Positions 38,492-41,505 of a stretch of 64,000 nt of DNA are shown here, one piece after another. The notes below the pieces were generated by a model. The model saw only the letters and a list, made by a program, of their open reading frames with translations, was not told the origin of the DNA and ran no database searches. The position numbers and the translations under genes were made by a program. This stretch comes from Planctomycetota bacterium (GTDB taxonomy: Bacteria > Planctomycetota > Phycisphaerae > UBA1845), in NCBI GenBank assembly GCA_016208685.1, contig JACQXM010000014.1, positions 1 to 64,000 on the forward strand. The letters are read 5' to 3'. Position 1 is the first letter of the stretch; each line of letters opens with the position of its first letter.

Positions 38492-39133
38492 TCAACCACC
38501 GCCGGCACCGAGTTTGAGCCGTCGTGCAATGCCGGCCACATGACGGCCCTGGAAGCGGGCGATGGTCAGTTCGTTTTCGCTCGGCTGACGCTTTCCATCC
38601 GAACCGGCCAGCGTCGAGGCGCCGTACGGCGTACCGCCGGTGATCTCGTTCATATTGGTCAGGCCCGGCTCAGAGTAGGGCACGCCGACGATGATCATGC
38701 CGTGGTGCAGCAGGGTCGTATGAAAGCTGGTGATGGTGGTTTCCTGTCCGCCGTGCTGGGTGCCGGTGCTGGTGAACACGCTGCCGATCTTGCCGATGAG
38801 GGCACCCTTGGCCCACAACCCGCCGGTTTGATCCAGGAAGTTGCGCATCTGGGCGCACATGTTTCCGAACCGCGTGGGCGTGCCGAAGATGATGGCGTCG
38901 GCCTCCGCGAGCTGCGACGGTTGGGCGACGGGCACGTGCGCGAACGCCGCCCGCGTCGCCTTGGCCCCGGTGCGTTCGAGCGCGTCCTCAGGGACGAGTT
39001 CCGGCACCTGCATGACGGACACCTGCGTATCGGGCACCTCGCGCGCTCCCGCTGCGATTGCCTCGGCGAGGGCATGCACGTGGCCGTACATGCTATAGAA
39101 AACGACTTGTATCCTCGTTTGGTCAGCGCGCAT
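38492..39133 (-). CDS. wrbA: NAD(P)H:quinone oxidoreductase, type IV (WrbA)
   Basis: [63 protein letters not shown]. Confidence 0.95.
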
Positions 39134-39198
39134 CGTGCGAGGACCATACCGCCCGGCCACCTACCTTGGCAAGCCGGCTTTCGCCCGCTTTTCGTTAC

Positions 39199-39375
39199 GC
39201 GCTGCTCGTGCGAGATTCCTAGCGGCGCTGCTCGTGCGAGATTCCTATCTCGCACGCGCGAGGCGGGGATTCCCGCCCCTGGTCTCGGGAAAGGATTCCC
39301 GGAGGCTTGGGTGCGAGAGAGGATTCTCGCACCAGCGATACCCAGACCCCGGCGCACCGGGACTCGCACCAGCGA
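39199..39375. repeat. Array of hairpins and short direct repeats between wrbA and the RT gene
   Basis: Direct repeat GCGCTGCTCGTGCGAGATTCCTA at 39199-39221 and 39225-39247; hairpins 39233-39256 (10 bp), 39262-39277 (6 bp), 39286-39301 (6 bp), 39310-39333 (9 bp); CTCGCACCAGCGA at 39326-39338 and 39363-39375. Confidence 0.85.
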
Positions 39376-39481: not shown

Positions 39482-40549
39482 CTACGCTGCCGGAGAGTTG
39501 TCGCTTTTCAGGCGCCATCGGTCCCCGATTTCGCGTGGGCGGTTCCGCTTTCGCGAATTAACCCACCATTTCGCGGTAAGTGAAACGCCAACCGTCGACA
39601 GCCGGCTCCGAACAAGGCGGTCGCCTTGGCGAAGGAGGCGGGCCAGATGCCGCGCCGGACTGAATCGGAGTTGGCGAAAATAGTTGATCATTCCCACCAG
39701 TTCGGCACGTCGTGACGCGAGACCTTCAAGGGTCTCCGGACGCACGCTTCGGGCGCCGCATACGTACGATTCCGCAAGTCGCAGTCCCTTCGCGCGATGC
39801 TCTGGTACGGCGCCGACTCCACGCCGGTTGTTTACAAGCAGGTTGTGGACGCGCGGCCCGCCCCTGGTGTTTGAGTGTTGAACGCCCTTCTGCCTTCGCT
39901 TGTGCTCGCTGACACGCAGCCCGTGACCCTCGATCTCATCCTCAATGACTCGTGCAAGCGGCGTGACGGATTCGCGAGCGCCGACCGAAACGACCATGTC
40001 GTCGGCACTTCGCGTGTAGCTCCCCCCGCGTCGGCGCACGCAATGGTCAAGCCGGCGGTCGGAGTCGGCGAGGAACAGATTGAGCGCATCGCCGCTCACC
40101 GGGGCGCCGTGGGGGATGACGCCTCGATTGGTCATCAGTCTGCTCAACAGCAGTGCCGTGTCACTCCTAAAGCCCTCATCAATCAGCCTTCTCCGCAACG
40201 CCTCAGTCGGGATGGATGGGTAACAGTCCTTCACGTCACGCGTCACGATGTACTTTCGACCCACATGGTTCCCAGCGGCTGTAACGCAGGAACGCCCCCT
40301 GAGGCCGCCGTGGACGCACCTAGGGAAAGTCAGACTGCGTTGTAGGTACCGGTGGAGTCGGCGAAGGACTTTCTTGAAATCGTGGTTCGGTGGATCAATC
40401 TCGCGATGTCGCCCCTTAATGAGTTTGGGGCGTGGCGAATGGTATTGTGATTCCGTCCGCTCCGCGATTCGCCAAAGTCGACCCTCATCGACTTTGCACG
40501 CCTCAGCGATCATCGCGGGGGTTATGTCACTCGGCTTCACGCGCCCCAT
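39482..40549 (-). CDS. Retron-like reverse transcriptase (RVT_1)
   Basis: RT motifs VHGGLRGRSCVTAAGNHVG, VTRDVKDCYPSI, GVIPHGAPVSGDALNLFL, SYTRSADDMVVSV, RVHNLLVNNRRGVGAVPEHRAKGL, LVGMINYFRQL. Confidence 0.88.
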   Translation of the reverse strand: MGRVKPSDITPAMIAEACKVDEGRLWRIAERTESQYHSPRPKLIKGRHREIDPPNHDFKKVLRRLHRYLQRSLTFPRCVHGGLRGRSCVTAAGNHVGRKYIVTRDVKDCYPSIPTEALRRRLIDEGFRSDTALLLSRLMTNRGVIPHGAPVSGDALNLFLADSDRRLDHCVRRRGGSYTRSADDMVVSVGARESVTPLARVIEDEIEGHGLRVSEHKRRQKGVQHSNTRGGPRVHNLLVNNRRGVGAVPEHRAKGLRLAESYVCGARSVRPETLEGLASRRAELVGMINYFRQLRFSPARHLARLLRQGDRLVRSRLSTVGVSLTAKWWVNSRKRNRPREIGDRWRLKSDNSPAA

Positions 40550-40862
40550 CCTTGAGCAGCCGGTCCCGAAGCGTCTCCTCCGCTTCGACCAGTTTCCGAA
40601 TGGCCTGCGTCAGCTTGTGGCCGTTCGGACTGGAATTCCGCAAGGTTCCATTTGTAGGTTGTGACAATAGAATGAGCACTTCCGGAGGTACGCCCAGCGC
40701 AAGGGCGATCCGGCGAAGGACGGTTAGCGACGGTTGTCGATCCCCGCCCTCCACCAAGCTCAGGAAAGCGACGCTTACGTCGGCCTTCCGCGCCAAGTCG
40801 TTGGCCTTGAGCCGCTTGGCCTGGCGCACTATTCGAATGGCTCTGCCAATGTCCAGAGGCAT
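40527..40862 (-). CDS. XRE-family helix-turn-helix protein
   Basis: IGRAIRIVRQAKRLKANDLARKADVSVAFLSLVEGGDRQPSLTVLRRIALALGVPPEVLI; overlaps RT start by 23 nt. Confidence 0.93.
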   Translation of the reverse strand: MPLDIGRAIRIVRQAKRLKANDLARKADVSVAFLSLVEGGDRQPSLTVLRRIALALGVPPEVLILLSQPTNGTLRNSSPNGHKLTQAIRKLVEAEETLRDRLLKDGAREAE

Positions 40863-40918
40863 AACGGCAGTTCCGTACTTTCAGTCTGTAGGGACATGCG
40901 TTCCGAACGCACGCCAAT

Positions 40919-41209
40919 TCAGGATGCAAGGAGTTCATCGATTTCCGTCCAGAGTAGATCGACCAAAAGGTCAACCTTCTCCGCGATCTCGGTGGCCTCG
41001 TCCGCGTCTGCGTTCCGCCCCTTTTGGGACAACTGCTCGATGAGCAGCGTCAACGCGATCGCGTCACCCATAGACCCCGCATTGCCGGATGCGCCGACGG
41101 AAAACGCCTGGAGCTGCTTTCGAAGGCAATTCGCCTTGCGTTCCGCGAGCTGCAGGAACCTCCGGGGCGTCCAGCGCAATTCGGGCCGTGGAAAACGACG
41201 GTGTTGCAT
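40919..41209 (-). CDS. Small hypothetical protein (96 aa), first gene of the RT cassette
   Basis: ATG 41209 preceded by AGGAGGA; same strand and spacing as HTH and RT. Confidence 0.6.
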   Translation of the reverse strand: MQHRRFPRPELRWTPRRFLQLAERKANCLRKQLQAFSVGASGNAGSMGDAIALTLLIEQLSQKGRNADADEATEIAEKVDLLVDLLWTEIDELLAS

Positions 41210-41212
41210 TCA

Positions 41213-41388
41213 TCCTCCTTTCGGTTTGTGGGAAGCCGTCTCTTCCCATGCGGGTCGTATTGGACGGGGAACATCCCCGGTCCCTCGACTGGTAGCCCCA
41301 AGGGGGGCTACGTGGCGCGAGGGCAAGTCGCCTCGTCGCGCCCGACGCCCATCGGCACGCATGCGCACCGGTGAAGGGAGTAGGAGGA
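41213..41388 (-). ncRNA. Candidate structured leader RNA of the RT cassette
   Basis: Tandem hairpins 41229-41248, 41262-41283, 41292-41311, 41314-41342 with closing 7-bp complementarity between 41382-41388 and 41213-41219 (the Shine-Dalgarno). Confidence 0.4.
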
Positions 41389-41450
41389 ACAACCTCGGCC
41401 CGATTCAGATTTTCAAAGAGCGCGGGCGAGAATTCGACTCACCCAAGGGA

Positions 41451-41505
41451 AGAATGCGCCATCGGGCGCGCGTTGTCAAGGCTGCAGAAAAAAAATTTTC
41501 TGCAG
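41451..41505 (-). promoter_or_regulatory. Candidate promoter and A/T-rich palindrome upstream of RT cassette
   Basis: Minus-strand TTGACA (41474-41479), weak -10 CATTCT (41451-41456, 17-nt spacing); perfect 10-bp inverted repeat CTGCAGAAAA/TTTTCTGCAG at 41482-41505. Confidence 0.4.

Follow-up and report, generated by a model that had tools for sequence, protein, structure and literature searches.

A reverse transcriptase operon of planctomycetes that probably forms a divergent branch of the type VI retrons

The window analysed here is a 64-kb stretch of planctomycete DNA. On its minus strand lie three genes in the order 96-aa ORF, XRE-type helix-turn-helix (HTH) regulator and reverse transcriptase (RT), the last two of which overlap by 23 nt; pntB and pntA precede the operon and wrbA comes after it. 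The original prediction had described three same-strand genes with this overlap between wrbA and the pnt genes, and its positions proved exact. The genes are:

38492-39160: wrbA (NCBIfam flav_wrbA, 306 bits against a cut-off of 132.5)
39482-40549, minus strand: reverse transcriptase of 355 aa, probably of a retron of divergent type VI (PADLOC RT_VI)
40527-40862, minus strand: XRE-type HTH regulator of 111 aa, best PADLOC match HTH_VI
40919-41209, minus strand: ORF of 96 aa
41810-43213: pntB, with parts of pntA beyond

A palindromic, repeat-rich stretch between the RT gene and wrbA (39195-39345) was considered as an RNA and rejected, being a dispersed repeat found at 10 places in the genome, its own included, and no part of the retron. 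In a search for empty sites wrbA lay within 1.5 kb of pntB in none of 19 relatives, and an insertion boundary therefore cannot be placed.

The RT matches Pfam RVT_1 (E 3e-11), and its top matches in PADLOC are all retron RTs, led by RT_VI (118.2 bits), RT_X (117.1 bits) and RT_IX (108.8 bits); among solved structures its best match is the RT of retron Ec86 (E 6e-11). The regulator is matched by Pfam HTH_31/HTH_3 and, best within PADLOC, by HTH_VI (E 3.7e-19), which is also the best match in every relative scanned. Type VI is defined here by the names of the PADLOC models (RT_VI and HTH_VI), and PADLOC-DB type VI reportedly follows the classification of Mestre et al. 2020. Two of the scores count against a type VI reading: the lead of RT_VI over RT_X is only 1.1 bits in the window RT, and the RT of one relative (G747) scores slightly higher with RT_IX than with RT_VI. 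A group II intron, held less likely at the outset, is a much weaker reading, the group II RT/maturase model TIGR04416 scoring far under its cut-off (30 bits vs 300) and no intron RNA family being found in the 64-kb window. So is an RT of the DRT/UG antiviral kind, the Drt models scoring far under their cut-offs (Drt2 41.5 bits vs 390, Drt3a 21.2 bits vs 200). The original prediction also considered a DGR less likely, having noticed no template/variable repeat pair; by its matches the RT is retron-like instead. Among viral contigs we found no close relative of the window RT, and tblastn with it against plasmids and phages returned distant RTs only.

Close RTs were gathered from 60 relatives, 392 genomes of the phylum and 397 of the class. 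The order small ORF, HTH, RT is present in all loci with a long enough contig (G411, G555, G491, G475, G531 and G747), in six genomes that belong to the same class as that of the window; G411 is 'Planctomycetes bacterium syqfu' (CP087563). Two further loci, in G539 and in G032, a MAG labelled Phycisphaera mikurensis, run off the end of their contigs. The HTH and the 96-aa protein are linked to the RT in every complete locus. Co-occurrence of the three genes in relatives, which had been proposed as a check, is thus borne out by an order conserved in six genomes of the clade. Moreover, the same order is found in more typical type VI loci of Planctomycetota and Pseudomonadota, including an Azospirillum plasmid. 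On sequence comparison the three-gene arrangement is more than chance: it recurs across families and phyla, and codon comparison of G555 with G491 indicates that each of the three genes is under purifying selection (dN/dS 0.35 for the small ORF, 0.10 for the HTH and 0.15 for the RT). A further locus (L060, G230:C2:373500-379500) combines relatives of the small ORF and HTH with an RT frame that stops after about 80 residues by a transposase-like ORF, and is a probable transposon-broken copy.

The 96-aa protein was described as unrecognised in the original prediction, and it has no match in Pfam, PADLOC, NCBIfam or PHROGs. It is predicted to form three helices (pLDDT 84.6) and is near neutral; a fold search with the model gave no significant PDB match, none falling under E 0.9. 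The G411 small ORF shares 32% identity with that of the window (E 8e-6), and the family comprises 7-8 homologues, eight aligned members being 25-38% identical with R30, A50, I57, E58 and A69 invariant. A profile search of the 397 class genomes returned seven credible homologues, all seven adjoining such an RT, and one extra weak match inside a 712-aa frame. As the profile was built including those seven, this result speaks against orphan copies and adds no new members. Two typical type VI loci, those of G201 and G250, have third ORFs in which profile comparison revealed no similarity to the 96-aa protein; the proteins may be unrelated or may have diverged past detection. We also observed that dS between G555 and G491 (L078/L079) is three to four times lower in the small ORF (0.136) than in the HTH (0.449) and RT (0.562) genes. 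This may reflect a leader RNA that reaches into the gene, or exchange of the 5′ part by recombination.

The genes are packed too tightly to leave space for an RNA between them, and we therefore compared the loci over the sequence that precedes the small ORF. Common to the planctomycete loci here are a promoter-like sequence, a boxA-like element and, ending at the small ORF, a structured leader. The non-coding features of the window are:

41482..41505, minus strand: perfect palindrome CTGCAGAAAA-TTTT-TTTTCTGCAG, ending 2 nt upstream of the -35 (p 0.002 vs shuffles)
41451..41479, minus strand: Sigma70-like promoter, TTGACA-N17-CATTCT, 9/12 consensus positions
41410..41420, minus strand: boxA-like antitermination element CTCTTTGAAAA, the only match to the pattern in 64 kb on both strands
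41213..41388, minus strand: candidate template RNA (msr-msd), about 176-180 nt, between a1 and a2
41388-41382, minus strand: candidate a1, TCCTCCT, predicted to pair with a2
41229..41248, minus strand: last leader hairpin, TGGGAAG-AGACGG-CTTCCCA, just before a2
41219-41213, minus strand: candidate a2, AGGAGGA, predicted to pair with a1
40897..40911, minus strand: inverted repeat TGCGTTC-G-GAACGCA between the small ORF and HTH genes (p 0.017)

Promoter-like hexamers also stand before boxA in the sister loci, with 9-11 of 12 positions; a consensus promoter scan made no call at 41451..41479. Sequences related to the boxA-like element occur at the matching place in other planctomycete loci, and the genome's own 16S leader carries a boxA, GTTCTTTGACAAG, that resembles that of the operon. 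boxA elements precede long non-coding RNAs and CRISPR arrays (PMC7862264). The window is like such a known case in having a boxA-like sequence shortly after the promoter of a defence-type system's non-coding RNA and differs from it in that the RNA is a candidate retron RNA; among the papers that a literature search listed, none joined a retron with boxA.

The fold of the leader has a z of -2.5 in the window and a mean of -3.3 over 8 loci. Its last hairpin reaches p 0.03 in the window and a combined p of 2e-4 over 7 loci (vs shuffles), and the sequence of its stems varies from locus to locus. Leader identity between G555 and G491 is 93%, as against 65% over the 136 nt that precede boxA. Taken by itself, the a1/a2 arm of the window does not reach significance (p 0.15), nor did an RNAduplex test of a1/a2 with free bulges (combined p 0.30). 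A test of ungapped helices and their positional agreement came after RNAduplex and is a second test of one idea. By this test the window, G411, G555, G747 and G230, which are independent loci of different sequence, all have their top ungapped helix of leader and ribosome-site region beginning 28-31 nt past boxA; five loci fell within a 4-nt span in 0/1500 shuffles, and the summed helix score was reached in 4/1500. In G475 and G531 the top ungapped helix lies elsewhere, and other pairs were seen by eye. Rfam searches, by gathering threshold and by E-value, found no ncRNA family at the locus. We consider the comparisons good evidence for a conserved leader RNA upstream of the 96-aa gene and moderate evidence that this leader is an msr-msd. 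The Shine-Dalgarno sequence of the 96-aa gene, AGGAGG, falls inside a2, and so the RNA may also limit translation of the small protein.

The palindrome beside the promoter is a candidate operator for the HTH protein, or else the end of the pnt transcript. G411 has a palindrome of the same geometry, AGTCTTGTGAA-AAAA-TTCACAAGACT, with the same 2-nt gap (p 0.002); none was found on the promoter side in G555, G475, G531 or G747. The second repeat, between the small ORF and the HTH gene, has a similar counterpart in G531 (p 0.003) and weaker ones in G475 and G491 (combined p 0.015), and is a candidate operator or RNA hairpin. By eye, the Azospirillum plasmid AZO_p4 (L123, about 1545-1580) has a TTGACC -35-like site with an inverted repeat, GTTCGCTGGCAGCGAAC, a few bases ahead of it, a layout that matches the promoter-side palindromes of the window and G411.

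How the operon relates to known retrons can be judged from typical type VI loci, whose RT_VI scores are 180 bits in G221, 211 in G250, 212 in G201, 227 in Sphingobium, 279 in Bacteroides uniformis and 294 in Azospirillum. The window shares with typical loci such as those of Azospirillum and Sphingobium the RT and XRE-HTH model families, an HTH gene before the RT gene, overlapping or tightly spaced genes, and a small ORF before the HTH. It differs from these two in its RT score (118 bits vs 227-294), and its clade differs in carrying xxDD and VHx motifs. Moreover, its third ORF encodes a 96-aa, predicted three-helical protein, whereas those of the Sphingobium plasmid (57 aa; L119) and of the Azospirillum lipoferum plasmid AZO_p4 (51 aa; L123) encode strongly basic peptides, and its leader follows a boxA-like element, which was not noticed in the Azospirillum leader read. 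The original proposal of a new retron type is not supported, as RT and XRE-HTH are an existing PADLOC type VI pair and typical loci also have a third small ORF. Its description as retron-like does stand, given best matches to retron RTs, a conserved operon and a candidate template RNA with a1/a2. So does its description as divergent, in view of the low RT_VI score (118 bits vs 180-294), a separate clade, altered motifs and a partner unlike the two third ORFs compared. We therefore regard the operon as probably a type VI retron, broadly understood, and as a divergent planctomycete branch of that type. Put more cautiously, it appears from sequence to belong to, or beside, the little-studied type VI retrons, as a branch of its own with altered enzyme motifs. 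Gene content, gene order and linkage, the RT clade, leader conservation, and the a1/a2 and hairpin elements are supported by the data; the altered RT motifs, the clade-specific third protein, boxA and the position of a2 over the ribosome site are probable new details.

It is quite unlikely that the operon is instead a distinct retron type that gained its XRE regulator separately. In a maximum-likelihood tree of 46 same-phylum RTs the window RT groups with six relatives in a single clade (100/100) on a long stem, and midpoint rooting sets this clade apart, as a distinct type would have it; the lack of profile similarity between the third protein and the third ORFs of G201 and G250 points the same way. 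However, the gene order is the same, HTH_VI is the best match of the regulator and RT_VI that of the RT in most members, and joining the clade with typical type VI RTs, although without tree support, is not rejected (AU p 0.39).

The window RT retains its catalytic aspartates, Asp105 in motif A and Asp183 and Asp184 in motif C. It has SADD instead of YxDD, VHN instead of VTG, and TAAGNH at the position of NAxxH, such that NAxxH and VTG, which are typical retron motifs and not strict criteria, are both absent; the RTs of G201 and G221 score highly with RT_VI and yet also lack VTG. V-H-[GNS] replaces VTG in 8/8 clade RTs, whereas VTG is present in most other planctomycete RTs compared. The YxDD tyrosine is lost in 7/8 clade RTs, G747 retaining YADD, and TYDD is common to several. 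Clade RTs also have an altered motif B, and most of them carry KWW at the C-terminus. An AlphaFold model of the window RT was poor (pLDDT 46.5) and was left unused. Loss of the YxDD tyrosine and of VTG could mean that RT activity is altered or lost.

These motifs bear on a second alternative, that the RT works in the manner of DRT/UG enzymes and makes no branched msDNA, with the HTH and small protein as regulator and partner. VTG is thought to be important for template recognition in retrons. Its replacement by VHx throughout the clade and the altered NAxxH would fit such an enzyme, as would the lack of matches to known ncRNA families. However, Drt2 and Drt3a (41.5 and 21 bits) score far below the retron models (105-118 bits), and the pairing with HTH_VI and a leader with a1/a2 arms also argue against it, so that we consider it improbable. 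Very improbable is a decaying retron, in which reverse transcription has been lost, in the window copy or throughout the clade, and the HTH and small protein persist as a toxin-antitoxin or regulatory pair: the serine in place of the YxDD tyrosine in the window, the truncated RT beside a transposase-like ORF in G230, and G539, a partial RT gene with DG for DD, speak for it, but the RT is under purifying selection in G555/G491, the three catalytic aspartates are kept in 7/7 full-length clade RTs, and the recurrence of TYDD marks a lineage trait rather than random decay. In a separate locus (L006, G053:C15) an HTH_VI-like HTH precedes an RT with YGDN in motif C, not YxDD, which is possibly an inactive or altered relative.

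For the way the operon may work, type IX is, by analogy only, the nearest model. In retron-Kva2 a winged-helix DNA-binding protein cradles the msdDNA, and the second small protein is a HEPN effector, a toxic RNase (PMC13405049). The window resembles that system in joining an RT, a candidate template RNA, a DNA-binding protein and a second small protein in one operon; it differs in having an XRE-type and not a winged-helix regulator, a second protein with no HEPN match, and an RT that scores 109 bits with RT_IX vs 118 with RT_VI. In retrons, the RT, RNA and RT-DNA restrain an effector until phage disturbs them (PMC12548924, PMC13405049).

In the scheme that we propose, a single transcript would start at the promoter (41479-41451), boxA would load Nus factors, and the long structured leader would be transcribed in full. 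The leader would then fold, with a1 pairing to a2, and the RT would bind it and copy part of it into branched RNA-DNA msDNA; the a1:a2 stem, in which a2 holds the Shine-Dalgarno, would also limit translation of the 96-aa protein. The RT-msDNA complex and the HTH protein would keep the system silent, until a phage attack on the complex frees an effector that stops the cell. The 96-aa protein is the likeliest effector, and the HTH would then act as regulator or second subunit, although the HTH could be the effector instead; the HTH probably also represses the operon via the palindromes beside the promoter. As a whole we hold this detailed scheme only tentatively, somewhat on the doubtful side of even. 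A further proposal, which we judge rather unlikely, is a separate subtype in which the template RNA acts as a translational switch: a1:a2 would mask the ribosome site of a new three-helix effector family, reverse transcription or phage disturbance would open translation, and boxA would secure transcription.

Most retron types are mechanistically uncharacterised (PMC13405049). The loci of this clade are complete and compact, have a defined candidate RNA and an obligate small protein, and are clearly marked in sequence, and thereby make type VI testable. Moreover, the clade widens the range of motifs possible in retron RTs and suggests a link between retron RNA, antitermination and effector translation.

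Two minor observations concern other loci. On Bacteroides uniformis pBUN2 (L121, 2222-3325) an RT of 279 bits with RT_VI is directly preceded by a very basic ORF of 71-73 aa, with no HTH_VI match between the two, and this is a possible two-gene form of type VI. Lastly, a short way upstream of the G411 retron is the end of a reading frame that resembles an integrase C-terminus (L010, 23-376), which hints at a mobile context.
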